DNA from: an uncultured Prevotellaceae bacterium
GTDB taxonomy: Bacteria; Bacteroidota; Bacteroidia; Bacteroidales; Bacteroidaceae
Assembly: GCA_900316645.1 (NCBI GenBank)
Contig: ONDP01000016.1
Span: 1 to 64,000 of the forward strand
Length of the DNA: 64,000 bases
Direction: 5' to 3'
This document shows, in pieces, positions 4,896 to 61,157 of this stretch; within the stretch, counting starts at the first letter, position 1, and each line of letters opens with the position of its first letter. The notes beneath the pieces are model-generated. The model did no database searches. It worked only from the letters and a program-made list of their open reading frames with translations, and was not told the origin of the DNA. A program made the translations under genes and the position numbers.

Positions 4896-4968
4896 TTTTC
4901 ACTTTTCACTCTTCACTTTTCACTCTTCACTTTTCACTCTTCACTTTTCACTCTTCACTCTTCACTTC
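4896..4968. repeat. Class B heptamer array (TTCACTT/TTCACTC)
   Basis: About ten 7-bp units alternate between TTCACTT and TTCACTC on the plus strand. The array fills the whole gap between two genes of one operon, so it is transcribed. Confidence 0.9.
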
Positions 4969-6222
4969 TTATTCGTCTCTCATCGCATCAACGGGTTTGA
5001 TGCTCATAGCACGGGCTGCCGGGGCAAGGCCTGCCAACATACCCATTGCACTCACAACCAATGCAGCCACGAGGGCCGTCCAGAAATTCACCTGGAAATG
5101 GGCAGTCAGGATGCCATCCTCCGTATTGCCAAGTTCCAACATCTGCAATATCATGACGGCAAAAAGAATGCCGCTCATACCAGCCACCAAGGTCAGGACA
5201 ATGCTCTCCGAGATAATCTGTGACAGTATCATACGCGGTGTAGCCCCGATGGCGCGACGGATGCCAATCTCGGTGGTGCGTTCGCGCACAGTGACCATCA
5301 TGATGTTCGACACACCGATAGCACCGGCAAAGAGGGTGCCCAGACCGACAAGCCAAATGAGGAAGTTGACACCCTTAAAGAGATTGTCGAGCATCTGGAA
5401 GAGTACTTCCGTATTAAACACCATCACACCCTGTTCGTCGGTAGGGTCAATGTAATGTGCCCAGGCAATGGTTTCACGGATGCGTGGTATGATGCGACTC
5501 ATCACCACGCCCTCGCGCCCTGTAGCTGCTATCAAGTCGAGCTGATTACCACGATTGTAGGTTTGCTGCACCAAGGTCAGCGGCAACGTGATGCGCTCTT
5601 CGCTGCGCCCATTGAAATTAATGTTCGACGAGCCATAATCGACACCGATGACTTCGTAATAAGTAGAGTCAACGCGGATGCTCTTGCCACAGGGGTCGCC
5701 CCCCTCTTTGAAGAGGTCCTTGTAAATCTTCTTGCCAATCACGCACACCTTACGATGCTCCTGGATATCCACCTGATTGATAAAGCGTCCGTAATACATC
5801 TTGGGAGCAATGACCTCGGCATATTCCGGAGTGACGCCCTGGATATTCGGTGACGTCTTCTGTTCACCATAATAAGCTGTGTTCGTCATACCCCATGGTG
5901 CAAACAAGATGGGAGCCACCTTGTCGAGTTCCGGCACTCGCTGGCGCAAACGCTCCAGGTCCTGATACTCCATCGCCCACCAGCGTCCCTTGCGGAATCC
6001 CTTATAGGGCTTACTGGTCTGTTGCGACCATACCATGACCGTGTTTTGGGCAAAGCCTTCGAAAGTTTTCTCCAGCATTTCCTTCAGTCCCTGACCGCCT
6101 CCTATCAAGGCAATCAGCATAAAGACTCCCCAGAACACTCCGAAGCCCGTGAGGAAGGAGCGCGACTTGTTGCGAGTCAGCGTATCCAGTATTTCTCTGT
6201 AGCTATCTAAATCTATTCTCAT
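4969..6222 (-). CDS. FtsX/MacB-type ABC transporter permease (second)
   Basis: A 417-residue permease with the MacB layout without an ATPase domain: one N-terminal membrane segment (SFLTGFGVFWGVFMLIALIGGG), a large periplasmic domain (about residues 45-280), and three C-terminal segments, the first near FLIWLVGLGTLFAGAIGVSN. The motif TVRERTTEIGIRRAIGATPR is the conserved FtsX-family cytoplasmic loop. It likely pairs with the permease encoded next to it and with the ATPase at 7495-8181 to power export through the adaptor and TolC. ATG 6222 is chosen; a TTG two codons upstream lies in a repeat array. Confidence 0.9.
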   Translation of the reverse strand: MRIDLDSYREILDTLTRNKSRSFLTGFGVFWGVFMLIALIGGGQGLKEMLEKTFEGFAQNTVMVWSQQTSKPYKGFRKGRWWAMEYQDLERLRQRVPELDKVAPILFAPWGMTNTAYYGEQKTSPNIQGVTPEYAEVIAPKMYYGRFINQVDIQEHRKVCVIGKKIYKDLFKEGGDPCGKSIRVDSTYYEVIGVDYGSSNINFNGRSEERITLPLTLVQQTYNRGNQLDLIAATGREGVVMSRIIPRIRETIAWAHYIDPTDEQGVMVFNTEVLFQMLDNLFKGVNFLIWLVGLGTLFAGAIGVSNIMMVTVRERTTEIGIRRAIGATPRMILSQIISESIVLTLVAGMSGILFAVMILQMLELGNTEDGILTAHFQVNFWTALVAALVVSAMGMLAGLAPAARAMSIKPVDAMRDE

Positions 6223-6284
6223 TATCAATTCTCAATTCTCAATTCTCAATTGTCAATTATCAATTGTCAATTATCAATTGTCAA
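6223..6284. repeat. Class A heptamer array (TCAATTG/TCAATTC/TCAATTA)
   Basis: Nine or so 7-bp units fill the entire 62-base gap between the two permease genes. No other signal is seen here. Confidence 0.9.
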
Positions 6285-7538
6285 TTATTCAGCGCGCAGC
6301 GCCTCTATGGGGCGGATTCGTGATGCTTTATAGGCTGGGATCAGTCCGGCTATGGTGCCGGCAATCACCATCACCATCGTTGCCTCGAAACAGACATCGA
6401 GTCCGACGGTGGGGTTGAGGAACATGGTGGCCTTGAAGAGTCCCGTATCTATCGTGTCATGGCCGACGGTGGCATCCATATACTCATTCGCCATCACGCC
6501 AAACACCATGCCGACATAGCCGAAGAATGTAGTAATGATAACACTCTCGACGATGATCAGCCTCAGTATGCCCCATGGCTTTGCACCGATGGCCTTGCGA
6601 ATACCAAACTCATGGGTGCGCTCCTTGACGGTGATGAGCATGATGTTCGAGACACCTACGATACCACTCAGCAAGGTGAACAGACCCACTATCCATAGAG
6701 CAGTACGAATGATGGAAATGCCCTGTTGCATCTGAAGACTCTGCGTATAGCGGTTCCACAGCCAGACAGCACTCTCGTCCTCAGGATGTACCTGATGGTT
6801 GGCATTGATACGACGGCGATAGTCGGACTCGAAGTCTTCGTTCGCCTCCTCCGTTTTCAGTCCATGGAAAGTAAACTCGATATTGCCGGCATCGTCAGTA
6901 TTAGCCCCGAAAATGCCCTTGATGGCGGAATAGGCAGAGAAAGCCTCTGCCTGACCATTCTCGGAATCCTTATAGATGCCAACCACCTGGAACATGAAAT
7001 TATTGACCTTGACATTACGTCCCACCAACGACTTATAGTCTTTGGGCGCCAGTTCTTTTGCCTGGTTACTGCTCAGCACGAGCACCTTGCGCTTCTTCTG
7101 CAGGTCGATATTATTGATGAATCTGCCATAGAGCATATCCATCTTGTCAATCTTGATATGGTTGGGGTAAACACCCAGAATGCTGGTACTGATATACTCT
7201 TGATTGTTGCTGATGGTAACACCGACGCTATAGCGGGCACCCACCTCGTCAACATGGTCCACGAAATCGCTTCCCGTTGCATCAACATCACGCGTCTGCA
7301 GACGGACTGCCCTACCCTCCTGCAAACCGTTGTATGGTTTTGAGGTGCGCCCGCCAAAGACCACCATGGAGTTGGAGAGGAAGCGGTCGCTCTGTTGCAG
7401 ATTGGCATTGATAAGTCCATTGCCTGCCCCCAACAATACAATCAGCATGAAGATGCCCCATGCCACCGCAAAGCCTGTCAGTCCCGTGCGTAACTTATTG
7501 CGCTGCGCCGTCTGCCATATTTCCTTCAATAACTCCAT
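6285..7538 (-). CDS. FtsX/MacB-type ABC transporter permease (first)
   Basis: A 417-residue permease beginning MELLKEIWQTAQRNKLRTG. It has the same plan as the next gene: N-terminal membrane segment (FAVAWGIFMLIVLLGAGNG), periplasmic domain, three C-terminal segments, and the loop TVKERTHEFGIRKAIGAKPW. Two different permeases suggest a heterodimer rather than a MacB homodimer; this is inference. ATG 7538 lies 44 bases inside the end of the ATPase gene, which points to coupled translation. Longer starts would place the N-terminus in the ATPase gene and lack a membrane segment in the expected place. Confidence 0.9.
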   Translation of the reverse strand: MELLKEIWQTAQRNKLRTGLTGFAVAWGIFMLIVLLGAGNGLINANLQQSDRFLSNSMVVFGGRTSKPYNGLQEGRAVRLQTRDVDATGSDFVDHVDEVGARYSVGVTISNNQEYISTSILGVYPNHIKIDKMDMLYGRFINNIDLQKKRKVLVLSSNQAKELAPKDYKSLVGRNVKVNNFMFQVVGIYKDSENGQAEAFSAYSAIKGIFGANTDDAGNIEFTFHGLKTEEANEDFESDYRRRINANHQVHPEDESAVWLWNRYTQSLQMQQGISIIRTALWIVGLFTLLSGIVGVSNIMLITVKERTHEFGIRKAIGAKPWGILRLIIVESVIITTFFGYVGMVFGVMANEYMDATVGHDTIDTGLFKATMFLNPTVGLDVCFEATMVMVIAGTIAGLIPAYKASRIRPIEALRAE

Positions 7539-18276: not shown

Positions 18277-18954
18277 TCAAGGCAGGAACACGCGCTCTGT
18301 CTTACCATTATAGGTAGGGATAGTGAGGCGGATAGTATCCAGCACTACGGTATCGGGAAGGAGGATGCTGACGAAGCGGCGATTGGTGTAGTATTCGGGG
18401 ACACCTGCCTGATCGTGGAGGAAACGGAACTTGGCAGTACGGGTACCGTCAGTATTCACGAGGATAGTGTCTTGGGCTAAACCAATGGTGTGAACACCGT
18501 CTTCACCATCCACCTGACCTGTTTTCAGCAAGATACCTAAATTGAGATACTTCCCGTTCTTGCCCAGCCAAGCACTCTCCAAACCGATGGGGTCTTCCTT
18601 GGAATCGTTGATTTTCCAATGTTCTCGGGCTCGTAGCGTCGGAACTGTTCCTACGGAAACAGGCTCGGCAGTATTGCCACTCAGCACATTGAAATACAGC
18701 ATGGCACGATAGGTGGTGTCAGCCGTCTGAATCCACGAAGCGGTGACTACAGGAGTGAGCGAAAAACGTTCATCGGCATCCGTCACGAAGGCGGTGCCCT
18801 GCTTATCGGCATTGATAGTCATATCAACCAGTTCTGCCTGCATCAGCGAATACTTACCCTGGCCCTTGTCATAACTATCGGTAGTGCAACTCGACAAATT
18901 GACAATTGACAATTGACAAATGAGAATGGTGATTACCTTAAGAATCCGTTTCAT
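18277..18954 (-). CDS. NigD-like lipoprotein
   Basis: From ATG 18954 the protein has 225 residues. A lipoprotein signal ends at Cys23 (NLSSC), so it should be anchored in the outer membrane. The remainder matches the NigD-like plan of Bacteroidetes: an N-terminal small barrel (YSLMQAELVDMTINADKQ, residues about 35-52) and a C-terminal beta domain ending in YNGKTERVFLP. Its exact function is unknown. Residues 13-19 (CQLSIVN) of the signal peptide are encoded by three class A heptamer units, so the hydrophobic core partly consists of repeat. The gene overlaps the end of the acyltransferase gene by 17 bases. Confidence 0.8.
   Translation of the reverse strand: MKRILKVITILICQLSIVNLSSCTTDSYDKGQGKYSLMQAELVDMTINADKQGTAFVTDADERFSLTPVVTASWIQTADTTYRAMLYFNVLSGNTAEPVSVGTVPTLRAREHWKINDSKEDPIGLESAWLGKNGKYLNLGILLKTGQVDGEDGVHTIGLAQDTILVNTDGTRTAKFRFLHDQAGVPEYYTNRRFVSILLPDTVVLDTIRLTIPTYNGKTERVFLP
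18897..18917. repeat. Class A heptamers inside a lipoprotein signal peptide
   Basis: Three AATTGAC units (plus strand) lie inside the NigD-like gene. On the coding strand they read as TCAATTG-type and stay open. Confidence 0.9.
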
Positions 18955-20173
18955 GGGCAGCAAGATAATTACGAAGTGGGTTGGCATACATGGTCAGCAT
19001 TCTCTCACGCAGGAAAGCCTCGTCCTTGTTGGGGATGTTGATTTTTGCCAGCTGGCCTGCCAGATATTCCTCGAAGCGCTGAACGTCGGCCTCAGTGTAG
19101 AATTGAGTAATCGACGAAGTCGCTTCGCTAGTCGAAGAATTATGATTACCATGCAAGCCTTTGGGGGAGTCCATTTTTAGCATATCCAAGGCAATATAGT
19201 TGCAGGGATAGAGGCGGTAGTGGCTATGAATTTCCTTGTCCATCCGCTGAGCGACAGCCTTGAAGAACTCGTTCTTCGGCAGGTCCTTCAGTTCGTCAAT
19301 CCATTGATTAATGGGGGTGCCACAATGATAATGCACGCGACCCTTATAACCAAGAATGCCTGTCTTCATATTGTCGAGATCATCTTGTTTGCTCTTCTTG
19401 AAGGCGGGATTGTCACGTTTCTGCTGGAACTCCTGCGCCTTCAGATAGTCACATGGGTCATATTCGTAGCTGATGGTAAGTGGCACGATATTGAGTTCCT
19501 GCAACGAACCGCCCATAGCCAACATTTTCAATACCGACTCCTGGGTACGGTCGTCAGAGTCCTTTGCCCTACCCTCCCGTTGGGCAATCCAGATGTTCTC
19601 CTTCTTCTGTGTGACGGCATAGTGGATGTAACGACTCATCAACTGACTGCTTTTCATCATCTCATGGGCAGTGAGACCACGACGCACCGTAAAGGCTTTG
19701 TTCATGCGCACCAATCGCTTAATCCAGGGATAGATGAGCAGGTTGTCACCAATACCTATCTCCACTGTTGTAGGATAGCCGTTTTTATGGAGCAGTACGT
19801 CGAGGAAGGCAGAGTCGAGCACGATGTCACGATGGTTCGAGACGAAGGTGTATCTGGGTTGAGAGTGGAGCGTTGAGAGTTGAGAGTCGTCAAAAGTGAG
19901 ACCATCGGTATGTTTGCGCACGATGTAGTTGACCACTGGTTTCATAAACCGAATCTGGAAGTCAAGTGGTGTCTTCACTCCTGTAAATGCCAGTCGCAGC
20001 AGTCCGTTGCGCATGGACTTCGGCAACCAGGGCACAAACCCTTTGAGTAGCGTCGAGAACTGCCTATCGTTGATCAGTTCCTCAAACGCCTGTTTCATCT
20101 CCCCCCGCTCATAGGGTCGGATTTCGGAGAAATCCTCCACAGCGGTAGCAAATTTTTCGTCTTCACTCTTCAT
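18938..20173 (-). CDS. PlsC-like glycerolipid acyltransferase
   Basis: A 411-residue membrane-associated acyltransferase-like protein. The catalytic block reads FVSNHRDIVLDSAF (about 111-124), followed by a hydrophobic substrate region, the FTVRR stretch and REGRAKD, the EGxR-type motif. The His-to-Asp spacing is HX5D if the last Asp is used, one more than the usual HX4D; HRD may supply a closer acid. Probable role is acyl transfer to a lysophospholipid or similar acceptor. The N-terminal MKSEDE is encoded by class B repeat, and residues near SQLSTLHSQ are encoded by a class D array, so the start is not certain. It precedes the NigD-like gene and follows ddl. Confidence 0.8.
   Translation of the reverse strand: MKSEDEKFATAVEDFSEIRPYERGEMKQAFEELINDRQFSTLLKGFVPWLPKSMRNGLLRLAFTGVKTPLDFQIRFMKPVVNYIVRKHTDGLTFDDSQLSTLHSQPRYTFVSNHRDIVLDSAFLDVLLHKNGYPTTVEIGIGDNLLIYPWIKRLVRMNKAFTVRRGLTAHEMMKSSQLMSRYIHYAVTQKKENIWIAQREGRAKDSDDRTQESVLKMLAMGGSLQELNIVPLTISYEYDPCDYLKAQEFQQKRDNPAFKKSKQDDLDNMKTGILGYKGRVHYHCGTPINQWIDELKDLPKNEFFKAVAQRMDKEIHSHYRLYPCNYIALDMLKMDSPKGLHGNHNSSTSEATSSITQFYTEADVQRFEEYLAGQLAKINIPNKDEAFLRERMLTMYANPLRNYLAAHETDS
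19858..19885. repeat. Class D heptamers inside the acyltransferase gene
   Basis: Four units (GTTGAGA, GTGGAGC, GTTGAGA, GTTGAGA on the plus strand) encode the segment SQLSTLHSQ just before the catalytic block. Confidence 0.85.
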
Positions 20174-20236
20174 TCTTCACTTTTCTCTTTTCACTTTTCT
20201 CTCTTCACTTCTCAATTCTCCATTCTCAATTCTCAA
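20141..20236. repeat. Conserved flank plus class B and class A heptamer arrays
   Basis: AGCGGTAGCAAATT (20141-20154) lies in the acyltransferase start region; class B units then run through its ATG into the 63-base gap, where they change to class A units up to the ddl stop. The whole gap between ddl and the acyltransferase gene is repeat. Confidence 0.85.
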
Positions 20237-21232
20237 TTAAGAAAACTGGTTTTCTACAATATCCGTCAGGACGTCAGTCATGTTAAGGCCGGCAGCCTTG
20301 ACTTGCTGAGGGATAAAGCTGGTGGGAGTCATACCCGGTGTGGTGTTAACCTCCAGCATGTAAATCTTGCCCTCAGGAGAAATGATGTAGTCAATGCGGA
20401 TGATACCGTTGCAATGCAGAATATCATAGATATGACTGGTTATCTCGCGCACACGACGCGCCAAGTTTTCAGAGATACGGGCTGGTGTAATCTCCTGCAC
20501 CTGTCCATTATACTTGGCATTATAGTCGAAGAACTCGTTCTGGGTTACCACTTCGGTGATGGGGAAAGGCACTGACTTCTCCCTCGTCTTATAGATACCC
20601 ATCGTAATCTCAGTACCCTTCAGGTATTGCTCGACCATCACTTCCGGACTCTCCAGCATAGCCTTACGGATAGCCGGTGCTAACTGATCGACCTCTTTCA
20701 CCTTCGACACTCCGAATGAAGAACCGTCACTAGCCGGTTTCACGAAACAAGGCATACCGATGCGCTGTTCCACCTCGTCGTCGCTCACCACTTCCTCGTA
20801 GCCCTTACGAATCAGCAGCGAATCGGCCACCAGAATACCATAGGCACGCAGATACTGGTTGAGAACGAACTTATCGAAAGTCATAGCCTCAACCAATACA
20901 CCACTGGTGCTGTAAGGCACACCCACCAAGTCGAAATAGCCCTGCATGATACCGTTTTCGCCAGGAGTGCCATGAATGGTGATATAGGCATAGTCGAAGC
21001 GCTTTGCCTTGCCGTTCTCTACAAACGAGAAATCGTTACGATCGATGGGAGTTGTTGTACCGTCATGCAGTTCAACGTTCCATTTCTGTCCTTTGACATC
21101 CACAATATAGACATCATACCTCTCCTTATCGAAGAAGGAATAAAGACCTTGAGCTGAGCGCAATGAGACATCGTGCTCGGAAGAATCGCCACCACAAACG
21201 ATGGCAATGACACGTTTTAAATTATTCATCAT
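20237..21232 (-). CDS. ddl: D-alanine--D-alanine ligase
   Basis: A 331-residue ATP-grasp enzyme that makes the D-Ala-D-Ala dipeptide of peptidoglycan. Typical features are CGGDSSEHDVSLRSAQ (residues about 13-28), the IHGTPGENG loop, FVKPASDGSSFGVSK in the ATP-binding part and LEVNTTPGMTPTSFIPQQ near the C-terminus. Length is normal. Its ATG overlaps the rluD stop (ATGA). PASTA, rluD and ddl form a tight operon that recurs in Bacteroidetes. Confidence 0.96.
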   Translation of the reverse strand: MMNNLKRVIAIVCGGDSSEHDVSLRSAQGLYSFFDKERYDVYIVDVKGQKWNVELHDGTTTPIDRNDFSFVENGKAKRFDYAYITIHGTPGENGIMQGYFDLVGVPYSTSGVLVEAMTFDKFVLNQYLRAYGILVADSLLIRKGYEEVVSDDEVEQRIGMPCFVKPASDGSSFGVSKVKEVDQLAPAIRKAMLESPEVMVEQYLKGTEITMGIYKTREKSVPFPITEVVTQNEFFDYNAKYNGQVQEITPARISENLARRVREITSHIYDILHCNGIIRIDYIISPEGKIYMLEVNTTPGMTPTSFIPQQVKAAGLNMTDVLTDIVENQFS

Positions 21233-24035: not shown

Positions 24036-24048
24036 TTCCAATTGACAA

Positions 24049-25095
24049 TTGAAGTATTCGATTATCGTTCCTGTTTTCAATCGCCCTGACGAAGTGGACG
24101 AGTTGCTTGAGAGCCTTTGTTCTCAGACACTTAAAGACTTTGAGGTGGTGATTGTTGAGGACGGTTCACAGAAACCATGCAAGGATGTTTGCGACAAGTA
24201 CGCAGGCATCCTTGATTTGCATTATTACAACAAGGAGAACAGCGGTCCCGGACAGAGCCGCAACTATGGTGTAGAGCGTGCTCAAGGTGAGTACGTCATC
24301 ATCCTCGATTCCGATGTCGTCCTACCCAATGGCTATCTTGCCGCCGTCAATTCTCAATTGTCAATTGTCAATTCTCAATTTTCAATTGCCTTCGGCGGTC
24401 CCGATGCGTCTCATCCGTCGTTCACTCCCGTGCAGAAAGCCATCAGCTACTCGATGACCTCCTTCTTCACCACCGGAGGTATTCGTGGGGGCAAGGCAAA
24501 GCTCGACAAGTTCTACCCCCGCTCGTTCAACATGGGCATCCGCCGCGACGTCTATCAGAAGTTGGGTGGTTTTTCGAAGATGCGCTTCGGCGAGGACATC
24601 GACTTCTCCTATCGCATTGTCGAGGCAGGCTATCAGCCGCGCCTCTTCCCTGATGCATGGGTATGGCATAAACGGCGCACTGACTTCCGCAAGTTCTTCC
24701 GACAGGTTTACAACAGCGGTATTGCCCGTATCAATCTGGAGAAACGCCATCCCGGCACCTTGAAACTCGTTCATCTCCTGCCCACCGTCTTTACCCTCGG
24801 AGTCATCGGTCTTATACTCATCTCAGCTGTTGGGCGCGTCTTGATGCACTATGATGATGTACATCGCTGGTTTTGGCTTTGTGCTGCCCCGTGGCTACCA
24901 ATCTTACTTTACAGTCTGATTATCTGTGTTGATTCATCCATACAGAACAAAAGCATCAAAGTAGGATTCTTAAGTATTCCTGCCGCCTTTGTCCAACTGA
25001 TGGGCTATGGATTCGGATTCATCGAGAGTTGGTGGAAGCGTTGTGTCCTGAAACAAGACGAATTTACCGCTTTCGAGAAAAACTTCTATTCATAA
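24049..25095 (+). CDS. Family 2 glycosyltransferase with C-terminal membrane segments
   Basis: A 348-residue protein beginning (L)KYSIIVPVFNRPDE, so the GT-A fold starts at once. DSD at 87-89 is the metal/nucleotide-sugar site, FGGPDASHPSF follows, and GEDIDFSYR supplies the ED base-type motif. Two to three membrane segments lie after about 255. Acceptor and donor are unknown; a cell-surface polysaccharide or lipid acceptor is likely. The only possible start before the domain is TTG 24049, since an in-frame stop lies two codons upstream; the TTG is part of an AATTGAC-type repeat. Residues 100-114 are encoded by a six-unit heptamer array. Its TAA shares one base with the radC ATG. Confidence 0.88.
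   Translation: MKYSIIVPVFNRPDEVDELLESLCSQTLKDFEVVIVEDGSQKPCKDVCDKYAGILDLHYYNKENSGPGQSRNYGVERAQGEYVIILDSDVVLPNGYLAAVNSQLSIVNSQFSIAFGGPDASHPSFTPVQKAISYSMTSFFTTGGIRGGKAKLDKFYPRSFNMGIRRDVYQKLGGFSKMRFGEDIDFSYRIVEAGYQPRLFPDAWVWHKRRTDFRKFFRQVYNSGIARINLEKRHPGTLKLVHLLPTVFTLGVIGLILISAVGRVLMHYDDVHRWFWLCAAPWLPILLYSLIICVDSSIQNKSIKVGFLSIPAAFVQLMGYGFGFIESWWKRCVLKQDEFTAFEKNFYS
24347..24388. repeat. Six class A heptamers inside the glycosyltransferase gene
   Basis: Units TCAATTC, TCAATTG, TCAATTG, TCAATTC, TCAATTT and TCAATTG give 42 bp, exactly 14 codons, without a stop. The encoded peptide is VNSQLSIVNSQFSIA. Confidence 0.95.
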
Positions 25096-25893: not shown

Positions 25894-27891
25894 ATGTCAC
25901 ACGAACATCATCACGACAAATGTTGTGCCAATGAGCACGAGCATCATCACGAACACCATCATGAACACCATCACGATGGATTGATTCACCAGTTATCACT
26001 GATTTTTGCCAGTGCCAGCCTGTTGGTATTAGCTGTCGTCATCGAACACAAATTCCAGTTGCCTACATGGCAATTGCTTCTCGTCTATCTCGTACCCTAC
26101 CTTGTGATAGGTCACGACACGCTGAAAGAAGCAGCTGAGGGAATAGCCCATGGCCATGCCTTCGACGAACATTTCCTGATGTCAGTAGCTACCATTGGAG
26201 CCCTTTGCATCGGTTTTCTCCCGGGTGCCGAAAACCAGTTTCCTGAAGCCGTCTTCGTTATGCTGTTCTTTCAGGTTGGCGAACTCTTTGAGGGCTATGC
26301 CGAAGGAAAAAGCCGCGAAAGTATCTCCCACCTCATGGACATCCGTCCTGACTACGCCAATGTAGCATGTGGGGACGCCCAACTCCAGAAAGTATCTCCT
26401 GACCAAGTTGAAGTCGGCTCTGTCATTGTAGTCCGCCCCGGAGAGAAAGTGCCGCTCGACGGTGTAGTGATTGAGGGGACTTCTTCCCTTAACACTGTTG
26501 CACTCACAGGCGAATCAATGCCCCGCGAGATAACTGTCGATGACGAGGTCATTTCCGGCTGCATCAACCTGTCGGGAGTTATCCGTGTACGCACCACCAA
26601 GAATTTCGGAGAGAGCACCGTTTCCAAGATTATTGAACTGGTTGAGAATGCCAGCGAACACAAGTCGCAGAGCGAGGCCTTCATCACCCGCTTTGCCCGC
26701 ATCTACACCCCCATCGTAGTTTGTGCCGCCATTGCCATCGCCATCCTCCCTCCCCTCTATATAGCGGTAGCAAATTCTTCACTCTTCACTTTTCACTCAT
26801 CATTTCCCACCTGGCTCTACCGTGCCCTGATGTTCCTGGTCGTCTCCTGCCCCTGCGCATTGGTTATCAGTGTACCGCTCACCTTCTTCGGGGGCATAGG
26901 CGGTGCTTCGCGCCATGGCATACTCGTGAAGGGAGCCAACTATATGGATATCCTTGCCAAGATAAAGACCGTCGTCTTCGACAAGACAGGAACGCTCACC
27001 CATGGACAATTTGCCGTCGAGGCAGTTCATCCCGACACTTGTTCAGAACACCAATTGCTCCATCTGGCAGCCCATGTCGAGCATTTCTCCACCCACCCCA
27101 TTGGGGCTGCCCTGCGCGATGCCTTCCCCGACGAAGCCACCGACGGCTGTCGCATATCCGACATAGAAGAAATAGCTGGACATGGCATCGTGGCCAGTGT
27201 TGAAGAACATCGGGTGGCTGTAGGTAACACGAAACTGATGGACAGCATTGGCGCCAAATGGCACGACTGCCATCATGTGGGCACCATCATCCACGTAGCC
27301 ATCGACGGCGTCTATGCAGGACATATCGTCATCAACGATAAAATCAAAGACGACAGTGCCGAAGCCATTACTCAACTCAAGGCACTGGGCGTCGGGAAGA
27401 CCGTCATGCTGACGGGCGACCGCAAGGAAGTGGCAGACCATGTGGCCAAGCAACTCCACATCGACGAATACCATGCTGAACTCCTCCCTGCCGACAAGGT
27501 GACATTCATGGACGAAATCGTCACTAGCCAACAGTCAACAGCTAATAGCCAGACACTCTTCGTTGGCGACGGCATCAACGACGCCCCTGTACTAGCCCGT
27601 GCGGATATAGGAATTGCCATGGGAGGACTGGGCAGCGACGCAGCTATCGAAGCAGCAGATGTTGTCATCATGGACGACCAGCCCTCTAAGATTGCCCTCG
27701 CTATCCGCATCGCTCGTCGTACGCTGAGTATAGCCCACCAGAACGTGTACTTTGCCATCGGCGTGAAGGTGGCCGTTCTGTTGCTTGCCACCTTCGGTCT
27801 CGCTACCATGTGGCTTGCAGTCTTTGCCGATGTCGGTGTCACCGTTCTTGCAGTACTCAACGCCATGAGAGCTTTGAGAATTGACAATTGA
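25894..27891 (+). CDS. Metal-transporting P1B-type ATPase (Zn/Cd/Pb type)
   Basis: A 665-residue heavy-metal pump of the inner membrane. The N-terminus is a His/Cys-rich tail (MSHEHHHDKCCANEHEHHHE and more) instead of a ferredoxin-like HMA domain. Motifs: TGES (from 205), CPCAL in the membrane site (from 319), DKTGTLT with phosphorylated Asp363, the HP locus STHPIG, and GDGINDAP (from 558). CPC with His-rich tail and no HMA fits export of Zn2+, Cd2+ or Co2+ rather than proof of one metal. Three class B heptamers encode FTFHSS-type residues near the start of a membrane segment, and the last residues IDN plus the stop come from a class A array. Confidence 0.92.
   Translation: MSHEHHHDKCCANEHEHHHEHHHEHHHDGLIHQLSLIFASASLLVLAVVIEHKFQLPTWQLLLVYLVPYLVIGHDTLKEAAEGIAHGHAFDEHFLMSVATIGALCIGFLPGAENQFPEAVFVMLFFQVGELFEGYAEGKSRESISHLMDIRPDYANVACGDAQLQKVSPDQVEVGSVIVVRPGEKVPLDGVVIEGTSSLNTVALTGESMPREITVDDEVISGCINLSGVIRVRTTKNFGESTVSKIIELVENASEHKSQSEAFITRFARIYTPIVVCAAIAIAILPPLYIAVANSSLFTFHSSFPTWLYRALMFLVVSCPCALVISVPLTFFGGIGGASRHGILVKGANYMDILAKIKTVVFDKTGTLTHGQFAVEAVHPDTCSEHQLLHLAAHVEHFSTHPIGAALRDAFPDEATDGCRISDIEEIAGHGIVASVEEHRVAVGNTKLMDSIGAKWHDCHHVGTIIHVAIDGVYAGHIVINDKIKDDSAEAITQLKALGVGKTVMLTGDRKEVADHVAKQLHIDEYHAELLPADKVTFMDEIVTSQQSTANSQTLFVGDGINDAPVLARADIGIAMGGLGSDAAIEAADVVIMDDQPSKIALAIRIARRTLSIAHQNVYFAIGVKVAVLLLATFGLATMWLAVFADVGVTVLAVLNAMRALRIDN
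26763..26798. repeat. Conserved flank and class B heptamers inside the P-type ATPase gene
   Basis: AGCGGTAGCAAATT (26763-26776) is followed by TTCACTC, TTCACTT and TTCACTC (26778-26798). The frame stays open and encodes VANSSLFTFHS just before a membrane segment. Confidence 0.9.
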
Positions 27892-27982
27892 TAATTGACA
27901 ATTGATAATTGATAATTGACAATTGATAATTGATAATTGACAATTGGCTATTGAAAATTGCGAATTAATGATTGAAAATTGA
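27878..27982. repeat. Long class A heptamer array
   Basis: About ten clear AATTGAC/AATTGAT units and several worn ones (ATTGAAA) extend from the last codons of the ATPase gene to 27982. The ATPase stop TGA (27889-27891) lies within a unit. The array ends 11 bases before the next -7 element. Confidence 0.95.
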
Positions 27983-57846: not shown

Positions 57847-57920
57847 ATCTCTCTCAACTCTAAACCCTCAACTCTCAACTCTAAACTCTAAACTCTAAAC
57901 TCTCAACTCTAAACTCTCAA
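57847..57920. repeat. Class D heptamer array (AACTCTA/AACTCTC)
   Basis: About nine 7-bp units fill the folP-cdaA gap and continue into the last codons of folP, where they encode ESLELRV and the stop. Confidence 0.9.
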
Positions 57921-58710
57921 CTATCCTAACGCATTCCACGGCTTCACGAACATCGTGGACACGAAGGATGGAAGCACCTTTCGTCAGCGAAACGGTATTC
58001 AGTACCGAAGTACCATTCAGTGCCTGCTCGGGCTGTGTGTCCAACAGGCGATATATCATCGACTTACGTGAGAAGCCTACCAGTATGGGCAGCTGTAGTA
58101 TTTGCAACTGTTCCAGTTGACTGGCAACGGCATAGTTTTGCTCCAACGTCTTGCCAAAACCGAAGCCCGGATCAAGAATGATGTCCTTCTGACCATAGGA
58201 ACGCAACTCGTCAACATCGCGGGCAAAACGGAGCAACATGTCACGCATCGTCGCTTCTTGAGACATTAATATATAAGGAACGTGCAGGCGGGATACCATG
58301 CGGAACATTGTGGATTGAGAATTGACAATTGACAATTGACAATTACCTACGTCATTAATGATATCGGCACCATATTCCTCGACAACCATTCGCGCCACGT
58401 CAGGACGGAAGGTATCGACACTGACAACGGCATCGGGAGCCTCCTTGCGAATCAGGCCAAGGGCAAAGCGCAGGCGCTCCATCTCCTCCTCTTGGGAAAC
58501 GGGCTCAGAACCAGGGCGCGTAGAGCAGGCTCCTACGTCAATGATGCTTCCACCTTCCTGCAGTATCTGGCGGGTGCGCTCAATAATCTGCTGCTCCGAC
58601 ATGGTGCGGCTCCCGGCATAGAACGAGTCGGGCGTCACATTAAGGATTCCCATCACCAAAGGAGTGTGGAGATCCAGCAAATGTCCGTTGCAATTAAGCG
58701 TATATTCCAT
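57895..58710 (-). CDS. folP: Dihydropteroate synthase
   Basis: From ATG 58710 it has 271 residues. The enzyme joins para-aminobenzoate and dihydropterin pyrophosphate in folate synthesis. Signatures: LVMGILNVTPDSFYAGSR near the N-terminus, IIDVGACSTRPGSEPVSQ, ILDPGFGFGKTLEQNY and GFSRKSMIYRLL. Between ADIINDVG and TMFRMV the loop is GNCQLSIVNSQS, encoded by a class A heptamer array; the C-terminal ESLELRV is encoded by a class D array. The -7 element (58727-58720) leaves room for only a few leader bases. A TTG four codons upstream overlaps that element and is not used. Confidence 0.94.
   Translation of the reverse strand: MEYTLNCNGHLLDLHTPLVMGILNVTPDSFYAGSRTMSEQQIIERTRQILQEGGSIIDVGACSTRPGSEPVSQEEEMERLRFALGLIRKEAPDAVVSVDTFRPDVARMVVEEYGADIINDVGNCQLSIVNSQSTMFRMVSRLHVPYILMSQEATMRDMLLRFARDVDELRSYGQKDIILDPGFGFGKTLEQNYAVASQLEQLQILQLPILVGFSRKSMIYRLLDTQPEQALNGTSVLNTVSLTKGASILRVHDVREAVECVRIVESLELRV
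58314..58344. repeat. Class A heptamers inside folP
   Basis: ATTGAGA, ATTGACA, ATTGACA, ATTGACA and a partial unit on the plus strand. On the coding strand the frame stays open. Confidence 0.93.
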
Positions 58711-58719
58711 ATTTTTTGG

Positions 58720-58778
58720 CAAAGATACAAAAAAGTTTAGAGTTTAGAGTTAAGAGTTTAGAGTTTTTTGTAATTTTG
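58720..58778. promoter_or_regulatory. Divergent promoters of folP and murF with class D heptamers
   Basis: Minus-strand TATCTTTG (58727-58720) for folP and plus-strand TAATTTTG (58771-58778) for murF. The space between them (58734-58765) is filled by GAGTTTA/GAGTTAA units, so the expected -33 regions of both promoters are repeat. Confidence 0.78.
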
Positions 58779-58801: not shown

Positions 58802-60148
58802 ATGGATATCAAGGAACTCTATAAACTTTATCAGCAGCATCCGTGTATTACGACAGACTCGAGAAACTGTCCTGAGGGAAGCATCTTCCTGGCACTGAAG
58901 GGTGCGTCGTTTAATGGCAACGACTATGCGCTTGCAGCCTTGGAGAAAGGTTGTAGCTATGCGATAGTCAGTGAAGAGTTAAAAGTTAAAAGTGAAAAGT
59001 TAATACCCGTCAGAGATACGCTGCAGACCTATAAGGACCTGGCACGCGAGCACCGTCGGCAGTTTAGTATTCCCGTCATCGGCATTACTGGTACCAATGG
59101 TAAGACAACCACCAAGGAACTGATACGTGCCGTATTGGCAGAGTGCTATAACGTGATGGCGACGGAGGGCAACTTCAATAACGACGTGGGGGTGCCTAAG
59201 ACGCTGTTCCGACTCAATGACGAACACGACATTGCCGTGGTGGAGATGGGTGCCTCGCATCCTGGCGATATCAAGACACTGGTAGAGACGGCAGAACCTA
59301 ACTGCGGACTGATTACCAACGTGGGACGTGCCCACTTGCAAGGTTTCGGTTCGTTTGAAGGTGTCTGCAAGACCAAAGGCGAACTCTACGATTTCCTGTT
59401 TGCACACGACTGCCCCATCTTCGTCAACCGTGACAACGAACACCTGATGAAGATGGTTCACGATTCATGGTTAAAGGTTCATGGTGAGTTGCCCGATATC
59501 TACTATTACGGTCAGAGTGACAACCCCGATATCCTGATTCGAGGCGAGGTGATAAGCTGTGCCCCCTTCCTGAAGTTCCGCTGGCGCGAGCAAGACCATG
59601 AGACTGGATATGAGAGTGAATGGCAGACCGTGCAGACGCATCTGATAGGAGCCTACAATCTCGACAATATGTTGGCAGCCATTACCATCGGCTATGTCAA
59701 CAACATTCCGTTCGAGCAGATAAACCATGCCTTGGCTAACTATGTGCCTTCGAACAACCGTTCGCAGATGACGGTGACGGAACATAACCACCTGGTGGTG
59801 GATGCCTATAATGCCAATCCCACGAGTATGAAGGCTGCCATCGACAATTTCTGTCTGATGGAGGTATCGCCCAAGATGGTTATCCTCGGTAAGATGGGTG
59901 AGTTGGGCGATGTTACGGAAGAGGAACACCAGAAGGTAGTTGATATGCTGGCCGCTGCCCATTTCGACAAGGTGTGGCTGGTAGGTGAAGAGTACAACAA
60001 TTGTCAATTGTCAACTCTCAACTGTCAATTATTCCATGACGTGGAAGAGGTAAAGGCTGCCATTGCCCATGAACAACCTCAGGGTTACTATATTCTCATC
60101 AAGGGAAGCAACAGTAACAAGCTGTTTGAACTACCGGAAAGGCTTTAG
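58802..60148 (+). CDS. murF: UDP-MurNAc-tripeptide--D-alanyl-D-alanine ligase
   Basis: A 448-residue Mur ligase that adds D-Ala-D-Ala to the UDP-MurNAc tripeptide; it uses the product of ddl, encoded elsewhere in this window. The N-terminal part (ITTDSRNCPEGSIFLALKG) is followed by the ATP loop GITGTNGKTTTKELI (about 94-108), VEMGASHPGDI, NVGRAHLQGFGS and DAYNANPTSMKAAI. Residues about 57-68 (SEELKVKSEKLI) and 400-411 (NCQLSTLNCQLF) are encoded by heptamer arrays at 58970-59004 and 59998-60032. Both keep the frame open. Confidence 0.94.
   Translation: MDIKELYKLYQQHPCITTDSRNCPEGSIFLALKGASFNGNDYALAALEKGCSYAIVSEELKVKSEKLIPVRDTLQTYKDLAREHRRQFSIPVIGITGTNGKTTTKELIRAVLAECYNVMATEGNFNNDVGVPKTLFRLNDEHDIAVVEMGASHPGDIKTLVETAEPNCGLITNVGRAHLQGFGSFEGVCKTKGELYDFLFAHDCPIFVNRDNEHLMKMVHDSWLKVHGELPDIYYYGQSDNPDILIRGEVISCAPFLKFRWREQDHETGYESEWQTVQTHLIGAYNLDNMLAAITIGYVNNIPFEQINHALANYVPSNNRSQMTVTEHNHLVVDAYNANPTSMKAAIDNFCLMEVSPKMVILGKMGELGDVTEEEHQKVVDMLAAAHFDKVWLVGEEYNNCQLSTLNCQLFHDVEEVKAAIAHEQPQGYYILIKGSNSNKLFELPERL
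58970..59004. repeat. Heptamers inside murF (first array)
   Basis: AGTGAAG, AGTTAAA, AGTTAAA, AGTGAAA and AGTTAAT, 35 bp. The in-phase positions carry AGTGAA rather than AGTTAA, so no stop arises. Confidence 0.9.
59998..60032. repeat. Heptamers inside murF (second array)
   Basis: CAATTGT, CAATTGT, CAACTCT, CAACTGT and CAATTAT, 35 bp, a mix of class A and class D units. The frame stays open. Confidence 0.9.
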
Positions 60149-60269
60149 AAGTTAAAAGTTAAAAGTGAAAAGTGAAAAGTGAAAGCTGCGATTAAGCGAG
60201 AGCAGAGCGATGCTTGCATCAGCTATGCCAAGCGTGAGCAGGTTCGATGTGAAACATCAAAAGTGAAAA
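60146..60269. repeat. Heptamers and a GC-richer repeat-like block between murF and a lipoprotein gene
   Basis: AGTTAAA and AGTGAAA units (60148-60184) overlap the murF stop. A block at 60185-60242 with GATGC-TT-GCATC in its middle and GCGAGAGCAGAGCG / AAGCGTGAGC at its sides differs in base composition from its surroundings. A GATGT-GAA-ACATC hairpin follows (60246-60258). No promoter is clear. Confidence 0.7.
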
Positions 60270-61157
60270 TTGAAACTTGAAACTTACATATTGGGAATTT
60301 GCCTGTTGATGGGGTTGCTGACGACGGGATGCAGCCAACAACGGCGGGAGGTGTTGCCAGAAGGTAATGCCGTCTATTACTGGCGCACGGACTGGCGGTT
60401 GGACTCTACGGAAAGGGCGTTTCTGAAACAGCACCATATTAATAAGGTGTATTGCCGGTATTTCGACGTAGTGATGAACGACTCCCTGGGACCGATGCCT
60501 AATGCCACCATCAGGTTTAGCGAAAACCTGCCGGAAGGTATTGAACTGATTCCCACCGTGTTTATCACCGAGGACTGTATGCACCAGAAACCCGACGGAC
60601 TGGCTGAGAAGATAGTCAAGCGCATCATTCAGATGAACGAGACGAACGACATCATGGGTGTCAAGGAGATTCAGATAGATTGCGACTTCACTGCCAAGAG
60701 TCGCAGGTACTACTACGACTTTTTATCGGAGTTAGCCAACTCTTCACTTTTCACTTCTCACTTCTCTCTCCTCTCCACCACCATCCGCCTGCACCAGCTG
60801 TCGATGAAGGTGCCCCCTGTGGATTATGGTGTGCTGATGCTCTATAATACGGGCCATCCCATGAAATTTATGGAGCGCAACCCCATCCTCGACATCCGCG
60901 ATGTAGCTCCCTATCTGCGCTACCTGGAGGACTACGAACTGCCGATGGCAGCAGCCTACCCCATCTTCCTCTGGCACCGCATCATACAGGGGGTTGACAT
61001 TGAGCATGTGGCTACTGCCGAGGAAATTATGAGGGTAAAGACTGCCGTAGAGAAGGAGCGGCCCGAGCTCAAACGCCTTATCCTGACTTATGATTTAGCA
61101 AAAGATAATATTAACAGATATAAACCAAAAACCTATGAAGAAATTTATTCTCATTAG
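60270..61157 (+). CDS. Lipoprotein of unknown function, possibly TIM-barrel-like
   Basis: A 295-residue protein with a lipoprotein signal (ILGICLLMGLLTTGCS, Cys21). The stretches VYYWRTDWRLD, KVYCRYFDV, EIQIDCDFT with YYYDFLSEL, STTIRLHQL and VDYGVLMLYNTG look like strands and active-site edges of a glycosidase-like TIM barrel, but I cannot name a family with confidence. The only start before the signal is TTG 60270, since an in-frame stop lies two codons upstream; the TTG is in a repeat (GAAAATTGAAAC). Class B heptamers at 60743-60770 encode SSLFTSHFSLLS inside the fold. It overlaps the next gene by 23 bases. Confidence 0.7.
   Translation: MKLETYILGICLLMGLLTTGCSQQRREVLPEGNAVYYWRTDWRLDSTERAFLKQHHINKVYCRYFDVVMNDSLGPMPNATIRFSENLPEGIELIPTVFITEDCMHQKPDGLAEKIVKRIIQMNETNDIMGVKEIQIDCDFTAKSRRYYYDFLSELANSSLFTSHFSLLSTTIRLHQLSMKVPPVDYGVLMLYNTGHPMKFMERNPILDIRDVAPYLRYLEDYELPMAAAYPIFLWHRIIQGVDIEHVATAEEIMRVKTAVEKERPELKRLILTYDLAKDNINRYKPKTYEEIYSH
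60743..60770. repeat. Class B heptamers inside the lipoprotein gene
   Basis: TTCACTT, TTCACTT, CTCACTT and CTCTCTC, 28 bp, in the open orientation. Confidence 0.88.

Follow-up and report, generated by a model that had tools for sequence, protein, structure and literature searches.

The glycosyltransferase gene of this locus raised the question of how tandem repeats of a 7-nt unit, which fill gaps between genes, came to lie inside conserved genes while the reading frames stayed intact. The window is the whole 64,000-nt stretch that was analysed (positions 1 to 64,000 of contig ONDP01000016.1). The sequence-only reading of it had described eight in-gene arrays and proposed repeated insertion into genes followed by selection for open frames. 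In the following, an array is open when it is read in the stop-free orientation and closed when it is read in the reverse one.

All eight intervals contained the heptamers reported for them. In the GT2 glycosyltransferase (ORF 24049-25095), a TCAATTC/G array at 24347-24388 on the plus strand encodes NSQLSIVNSQFSI. The array in folP (ORF 57895-58722) consists of TCAATTG units at 58314-58344 on the minus strand and encodes CQLSIVNSQ. Two arrays lie on the plus strand in murF (ORF 58802-60148). Residues 57-68 are encoded by an AGTGAAA/AGTTAAA array of the closed family, from which in-phase stops are absent (58970-59004), and residues 399-411 of the C-terminal domain by a TCAATTG/TCAACTC array (59998-60032) that reads NCQLSTLNCQL. 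The P-type ATPase (ORF 25894-27891) carries GCGGTAGCAAA, TTC and then a TTCACTC/T array at 26764-26798 on the plus strand, which encodes AVANSSLFTFHS. On the minus strand, a CTCAACT-type array at 19858-19885 in the acyltransferase (ORF 18938-20173) encodes DSQLSTLHSQ. A TCAATTG array at 18897-18917, also on the minus strand, forms the N-terminus of a NigD-like lipoprotein (ORF 18277-18987) directly before the cysteine of CTTDS, and by eye this region looks like a signal peptide. The last array (TTCACTT, 60743-60770, plus strand) lies in a lipoprotein-like ORF at 60270-61157 and encodes NSSLFTSHFSLLS.

The seven array-bearing proteins were translated without an internal stop. Pfam agreed with the names given to five of them (Mur ligase domains for MurF, GT2, Pterin_bind for FolP, E1-E2 ATPase and Acyltransferase). 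The 18.9-kb lipoprotein proved NigD-like (PF17415), and the protein at 60.7 kb was without a Pfam match. The named copies had the stop-free orientation as described, with the first murF array as the sole exception. The escape of this array had been ascribed to a changed TAA site. AGT-GAA does replace an in-phase TAA, and the half that had been missed was GAG-TTA replacing an in-phase TGA. In a predicted MurF model (mean pLDDT 84.9), the first array would correspond to a coil (57-66) after strand 53-56 and to the start of strand 67-69, and the second to the end of helix 396-400, coil 401-407 and strand 408-411. The first array was aligned with the solved E. coli MurF structure 1gg4 with a one-residue gap. 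The glycosyltransferase model was poor in the loop (pLDDT under 50 at 109-117). Arrays also reach the start codon at 24039-24052 and 60270-60285, and the TTG starts called for the glycosyltransferase and the 60.3-kb ORF lie within heptamers. The glycosyltransferase start is ATG in most relatives among the matches listed.

The heptamer pattern is real and strong. In 1.22 Mb of the window's own genome, 160 period-7 arrays were found at a score of at least 12, with 0-14 arrays at any one of the other periods between 4 and 15. A slightly looser cut-off was used for the remaining counts and gave 177 arrays in the same 1.22 Mb. The relatives were the best 80 relatives by glycosyltransferase. They were mostly rumen Prevotella, chiefly MAGs with few isolates, so the window genome was taken to be probably a rumen Prevotella as well. 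Their 80 loci (1.44 Mb) held 183 period-7 arrays against 0-37 per other period. The 20-base pattern TCAATTSTCAATTSTCAATT had 51 overlapping matches in the 2.88-Mb draft genome and 0 when reversed. In a genus-wide search with the 20-base pattern, matches were present in 23 of 60 genomes, the own genome included, and four others had 17-30. The reversed control was not always zero, with matches in 9 of the 60 genus genomes (11 in G039, 15 in G038) and, in one of two unit-count searches, in 5 of 37; the reversed control patterns are heptamer arrays themselves. The second unit-count pattern reads the same when reversed, which makes its control uninformative.

One unit class was the top unit of 29 of the 177 arrays and six more classes topped 8 to 19 each, the commonest being AAAAGTG, AATTCTC, AATTGAC and AACTATG. 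Closed-orientation units mostly contained TGA (AGTGAAA, AATTGAC/G/T, AGTTCAT on the other strand, and others). Within some arrays, the transitions from unit to unit were in phase. The top unit had a stop on exactly one strand in 135 of 177 arrays of the own genome and in 124 of 198 arrays of the relatives; the baseline was 0.425 for intergenic heptamers and 0.617 for letter-shuffled units. An Rfam search of the window gave a single feature, a tRNA.

Genes were called with a simple caller of our own (952 genes, 91% coding). Of the 177 arrays, 43 were well inside genes although 91% of the sample was coding. A further 90 lay in co-directional spacers, 17 in divergent and 13 in convergent ones, 9 at gene edges, and 5, at stretch ends, were unplaced (three in the relatives). 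Among co-directional spacers of 8-300 bp, 71 of 412 carried an array and 341 did not. In the 71, arrays covered a median of 72% of the distance from stop to start. They were flush at both ends in 33 of 71, which is partly a matter of definition because the new stop codon of an invaded gene comes from the array itself. The array end was located -5 to +10 nt from the start codon in 44 of the 71, after non-ATG called starts had been shifted to the next in-frame ATG.

Several spacer arrays of the window illustrate this placement. On the minus strand, a closed array at 6221-6286 runs from a gene's stop codon to the next gene's called start, and a closed AGTGAAG/A array at 4896-4966 starts 2 nt past the stop codon of ORF 4969-6228. 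A TTGATAA/TTGACAA array at 27874-27982 on the plus strand contains the ATPase stop codon (27889-27891), and an AGTTTAG/AGTTGAG array at 57851-57922 on the minus strand contains the last codons and the stop of folP. At the 5' end of the acyltransferase (20142-20238, minus strand), a spacer array at 20160-20238 is followed by 7 nt and by a fixed tail, TTTGCTACCGC, at 20142-20152; the called acyltransferase start (20173) falls within this array. After murF (60145-60260, plus strand), an AGTTAAA/AGTGAAA array at 60145-60184 is followed by a 76-nt dispersed element at 60185-60260.

The orientation of arrays was compared between genes and spacers. Since an intact ORF cannot contain in-frame stops, the openness of an in-gene array is by itself weak evidence. 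In the own genome, the 43 in-gene arrays were 34 open, 5 closed and 4 neutral, and the co-directional spacer arrays were 51 closed, 16 open and 23 neutral. This flip gave a Fisher probability of 2e-10 with the neutral arrays excluded. The same reversal was observed in the relatives, where counting coding and non-coding copies had been suggested as a check: 43 open, 8 closed and 13 neutral in genes, and 58 closed, 8 open and 17 neutral in co-directional spacers (Fisher, 1.5e-15), although their loci are orthologous regions and thus not fully independent replicates. The claim that in-gene copies were always open was not borne out, since 5 of 43 in the 1.22 Mb and 8 of 64 in the relatives were closed, and 4 and 13 were neutral.

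The closed bias of spacer arrays differed with their position relative to the upstream stop codon. Where an array abutted the upstream stop, closed and open arrays numbered 37:6 in the own genome and 45:3 in the relatives (82:9 pooled). Away from the stop, the counts were 14:10 and 13:5 (27:15 pooled), which was not significant. The pooled difference between the two settings was significant (p = 6e-4). Read most simply, this means that arrays may spread into the end of a gene as long as they soon stop the frame.

Stop sites inside the arrays were then considered base by base. Nine in-gene arrays of the own genome were closed or neutral. In these, the in-phase stops expected from the consensus were changed in 12 of 12 cases and the out-of-phase ones in 3 of 26. 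In closed spacer arrays, 33 of 306 expected stops were changed. The in-phase changes are required by the ORF, so the 12 of 12 alone is no test; the informative point is that the out-of-phase sites stayed at the spacer rate. In contig C38 at 19027, GTTAG was found in every third unit and GTGAA in the units between. The comparison showed the reading frame to be a filter: arrays are open in genes, closed where they abut a 3' end, and devoid of in-phase stops. Frame constraint was visible at the in-phase stop sites, and the reversal in spacers was informative as well, but openness within genes is itself largely forced by intact ORFs.

Orthologues were compared at each in-gene site. Before counting, duplicates and matches that failed to cover the site were removed (murF 1, glycosyltransferase 21, folP 2, 60.7-kb lipoprotein 1, others 0). 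A further 7 acyltransferase matches (L203, L206, L208, L178, L163, L173 and L209), in which the joined alignment contained a stop, were removed as well; these may be disrupted genes or may result from the joining. In the glycosyltransferase, the loop between GYLxAV and FGGPD carried arrays in 22 of 90 distinct orthologues, the window included, with 16 unit classes, and the gene outside the loop carried 0 arrays in the same 90. On a tree built without the loop segment, presence and absence required at least 18 changes. Arrays occurred, again with the window included, in 6 of 41 orthologues at each of murF sites 1 and 2, in 6 of 52 for the acyltransferase, in 8 of 42 at the NigD-like N-terminus and in 5 of 14 for the 60.7-kb lipoprotein. 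For the ATPase, the strict cut-off gave 4 of 12 and a score of 9 gave 6 of 12. At the folP site, the array was present in 1 of 33 orthologues, that of the window only. The same alignments contained further arrays beyond these sites (murF 6, folP 2, ATPase 3, acyltransferase 6), several of which share a position. A second ATPase segment (gene nt about 1503-1573) held arrays of two unit types in 3 of 12 orthologues (L151, L153, L203).

The comparison showed recurrent, lineage-specific occupation of one loop with different units. Loop peptides such as NSQLSIV and NSSLFTLHSSL were similar across species. It had been asked whether homologues without the DNA repeat carry the same peptide. They did not, which favours occupation by the repeat. 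These alignments supported the view that the arrays are lineage-specific occupations of variable segments. The loops also held other material. G/C-rich inserts were found in the tolerant loops of one murF (PPKGGK...GGEGGG, L045) and one glycosyltransferase (PLPHREGQGGG, L179), and a similar G/C-rich repeat was found next to arrays. The loop of four glycosyltransferases (L195, L201, L211, L223) had a longer insert, in which a core of ~25-60 nt lies between a heptamer array and a second, inverted one.

The lengths of the occupied segments were measured in residues as medians with and without an array. They were 27 and 23 for murF site 1, 22 and 18 for murF site 2, 23.5 and 20 for the glycosyltransferase, 19 and 13 for folP, 14.5 and 8 for the ATPase, 25.5 and 17.5 for the acyltransferase, 16 and 16 for the 60.7-kb lipoprotein, and 16 and 15.5 for the NigD-like protein. 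The expectation of a clean insertion did not hold. The median gain was 0 for the 60.7-kb lipoprotein and 0.5 residue for the NigD-like protein, and at the other six sites it was 3.5 to 8 residues, mostly less than the 7 to 14 codons of the window arrays. These lengths meant that variable sequence was replaced and somewhat lengthened, so the comparison showed replacement with modest lengthening. In the ATPase, four orthologues (the window, L158, L151 and L156) had different units in segments that agreed in length and register, the L158 and L156 segments scoring below the array cut-off. From the aligned sequences, this looks like a concerted change of units. Such a change at constant length would be odd for slippage and counts against a satellite and slippage reading. 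The ATPase segment was shorter and array-free in 5 of 12 orthologues.

The source of the units was examined next. The top unit of an in-gene array matched own-genome arrays outside gene interiors in 35 of 43 cases, against 25 of 64 for the relatives' in-gene arrays compared with the same set (p = 2e-5). Genomes with a TTCACTC glycosyltransferase loop contained 24, 51 and 3 TTCACTC arrays after the loop matches were removed, against a median of 1. Those with a TCAACTC loop contained 38, 13 and 2 TCAACTC arrays, likewise with loop matches removed, against a median of 2. The enrichment of both units in the six unit-carrying genomes had a permutation p of 0.003 among 37 genomes, which were picked partly for loop arrays. 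When the pool was first tested inside loci of 20 kb, the signal was weak, with own matches for 6 of 18 arrays where 2.5 would be expected. The AATTGGC (L220) and CAGCCAT (L198) loop units had no second exact three-copy array in their genomes, which favours purely local growth. Overall, the comparison showed that the units inside genes mirror those in the spacers of the same genome.

Copying of whole arrays was considered as a general route and rejected. Shared non-periodic 24-mers involved 9 of 177 arrays, and the mean after 50 shuffles was 9.6. Since unit order was not shared, copying beyond a few units was not seen, and the suggestion that one element was copied from place to place was contradicted. 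Our conclusion is that each genome takes its units from a set of its own and that long arrays are not duplicated in their entirety.

There were signs that some heptamers travel with larger pieces. The 11-mer TTTGCTACCGC adjoins arrays of at least 4 different units, 3' of the closed strand. Of 81 TTTGCT[AG]C[CT]G sites in 2.66 Mb, 33 were preceded within 50 bp by a period-7 signal, which random positions showed in 1% of cases, although some of these sites are orthologous places in related species; the own-genome sample alone gave 13 of 36. The ATPase copy of the window carries the tail at 26764-26774, where it reads as GCGGTAGCAAA, the complement of TTTGCTACCGC, and L158 also has it. GARTTTGCTACCGCC was found in 3 of 246 other genomes of the order, in a search that covered order genomes outside the genus plus the own genome. 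With its last C, it matches just 2 own-genome copies, so this number undercounts the tail in the order. The 76-nt element, whose window copy is that after murF, was found at five places in the 1.22 Mb with 89-100% identity and with AGTGAAA units at its borders. Facing inverted array pairs were present at some loci, for example in C34 near 50500 and in L152. That arrays are the edges of longer repeats was rejected as a general rule. Repeats were counted at 42 of 354 array flanks against 13-43 in ten controls, and the flanks were thus not clearly repeat-enriched. As a check for a telomerase-like source, an RVT_1 profile search of the own genome (87% complete) gave one match below the cut-off, and the matching 448-aa ORF is L231:796-2142 (G000 contig C37).

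The arrays were widely distributed in the sample, in which each species was represented by one genome. At least one array was present in 62 of the 80 relatives' loci, with MAGs from several projects. Eight loci with isolate-like titles held 4 arrays and the other 72 held 202, so the load was far lower in the isolates sampled. An isolate, Prevotella sp. tf2-5 (L037, identity inferred), had an array with score 19 in the same murF loop, and its genome (G203) had further arrays, with 5 and 7 matches in two pattern searches.

We favour, with somewhat better than even confidence, the explanation that genome-specific heptamer satellites occupy DNA that tolerates change, with the reading frame as a filter, and that they do so by seeding and slippage. 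The arrays would occupy DNA that is free to change, namely spacers, often from the upstream stop to the downstream start, and within genes the segments with little constraint on their sequence. Short template switching or ectopic gene conversion may bring in one or two units from the pool as a seed. The seed would then be extended and homogenised by replication slippage in 7-nt steps. One subfamily has the fixed end TTTGCTACCGC and may travel with it. The restriction of the folP array to this species (1 of 33) and the far lower load in the sampled isolates speak against this explanation. A mobile heptamer-bearing element that inserts in genes, with just the in-frame stop-free copies surviving, would explain why one fixed tail stands beside arrays of several units, why the ATPase copy and L158 carry this tail where 5 of 12 orthologues have a shorter array-free segment, and why the 76-nt element occurs at five places with AGTGAAA borders. 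However, in the own sample 13 tail sites adjoin arrays against 177 arrays, so most arrays are without a tail. The absence of any length gain at one of the eight sites and a gain of half a residue at another, the unshared unit order, and flanks that are not clearly repeat-enriched also make such an element unlikely. Purely local 7-nt slippage at tolerant sites, in which unit preference comes from mutation or polymerase bias and nothing is moved, is doubtful to a similar degree. It would agree with the unshared unit order and with the two loop units that are unique in their genomes, and in most genomes the commonest class among long simple repeats is that of heptanucleotides (Mrazek 2007, as cited in the accessible part of PMC4679880). 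It is at odds with the concentration of 29 of 177 arrays in one unit class and of 8 to 19 in each of six others, with in-gene units that track the genome's own set, and with one tail that adjoins different units.

The remaining explanations concern function, protein sequence and templated synthesis. If the arrays were functional spacer elements, supplying stops in all frames and a leader for the next start, the in-gene copies would be by-products. Arrays in 71 of 412 co-directional spacers, 33 of the 71 being flush at both ends, would fit this, as would the excess of one-strand-stop top units (135/177 and 124/198) over the intergenic and shuffled baselines, and a translational role has been suggested for TAACTGA repeats upstream of starts (PMC4679880, in part). 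Yet flushness partly follows from how gene ends are defined, arrays away from the stop show no significant closed bias (14:10 and 13:5), and 341 of 412 spacers are array-free; we regard this explanation as quite improbable. Convergent selection on proteins for Ser/Asn/Gln/Leu-rich loops, which would have made look-alike DNA, could draw on similar peptides across species (NSQLSIV, NSSLFTLHSSL). It is rejected as next to impossible, because selection on amino acids cannot produce a period of 7 nt, which is not a multiple of 3; one heptamer is read in all three frames, and the same units fill spacers. Telomerase-like synthesis, templated in 7-nt steps onto the primer-like end GCGGTAGCAAA at unconstrained sites, with species-specific templates and continually rewritten loops, would be a long shot.

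The system amounts to a natural experiment with replicates: in conserved enzymes, non-coding satellite DNA is turned into protein sequence, and the frame filter is visible base by base. The arrays reveal protein segments that are free for overwriting, and the reason for the 7-nt preference of bacterial repeats becomes testable in culturable relatives. Caution is needed with array-bearing loops and N-termini, which are poor material for phylogeny and annotation.

The arrays were finally compared with known systems. With bacterial heptanucleotide tandem repeats they share the 7-nt period and the dispersed, mainly intergenic loci. Short tandemly repeated repetitive (STRR) heptanucleotides were reportedly described in cyanobacteria by Mazel in 1990. 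Rickettsia palindromic elements have a palindromic unit of about 100-150 bp that is inserted in frame. The Prevotella arrays are not of this palindromic type; they are direct repeats, with facing inverted arrays at some loci. Like the STRR and the 7-nt long simple repeats of Mrazek 2007 (as cited in PMC4679880), they have a 7-nt period, genome-wide dispersal and unit families, but they occur in other taxa and consist of other units; the accessible part of that source holds no coding-frame comparison of this kind. Heptamers of Xanthomonas and Nostoc are the subject of PMC4692102, as far as its available part indicates. Enterobacterial RU elements inside genes measure 103, 127 and 168 bp (Delihas 2007, PMC2759123, in part). 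Rickettsia palindromic and RU elements are likewise small dispersed repeats between and inside genes that are read through in frame, but their units are MITE-like or palindromic, whereas the Prevotella arrays are built of a 7-nt unit.

Borg tandem repeats have independent origins, evolve fast and occupy spacers and ORFs, with strong selection in ORFs (Schoelmerich 2023, PMC9879509, in the part available). The heptamer arrays similarly arise independently, evolve fast and occupy both, and those in ORFs are likewise under strong selection. They are not Borg-type amino-acid repeats, which are perfect in ORFs; the heptamer is read in all frames, and its imperfect peptide repeats recur every 21 nt. 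A tree-of-life survey reports high repeat density in Bacteroidota, in coding sequence too (Genome Biol 2025, PMC12699852, in the part available). Units of three are enriched in coding sequence there, unlike the heptamers here, and Prevotella has 0 occurrences in that part of its text. Among the literature matches listed, with most subscription journals outside the literature covered, no paper on heptamer arrays in Prevotella genes was found.

The closest system is that of the TAACTGA heptamer direct repeats in marine Beggiatoaceae, Cyanobacteria and some Bacteroidetes (MacGregor 2015, PMC4679880, in its accessible part). These have stops in all frames of one strand, and 24 sets lie within or overlap ORFs, mostly at protein ends. 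The orientation logic is therefore not new, since the stops and the in-ORF sets were already described there. In both systems the repeats are direct, tandem and 7 nt long, and most lie between genes and close to start codons, the last being found here for 44 of 71. The unit itself was absent: TAACTGA (canonical AACTGAT) was not among the 41 array-topping unit classes in the 1.22 Mb. In contrast to the TAACTGA system as described in that part of the source, with one dominant unit and in-ORF copies mainly at the protein periphery, the Prevotella arrays form a unit cloud that differs by genome, lie inside conserved enzymes, occupy one loop recurrently and are without in-phase stops.
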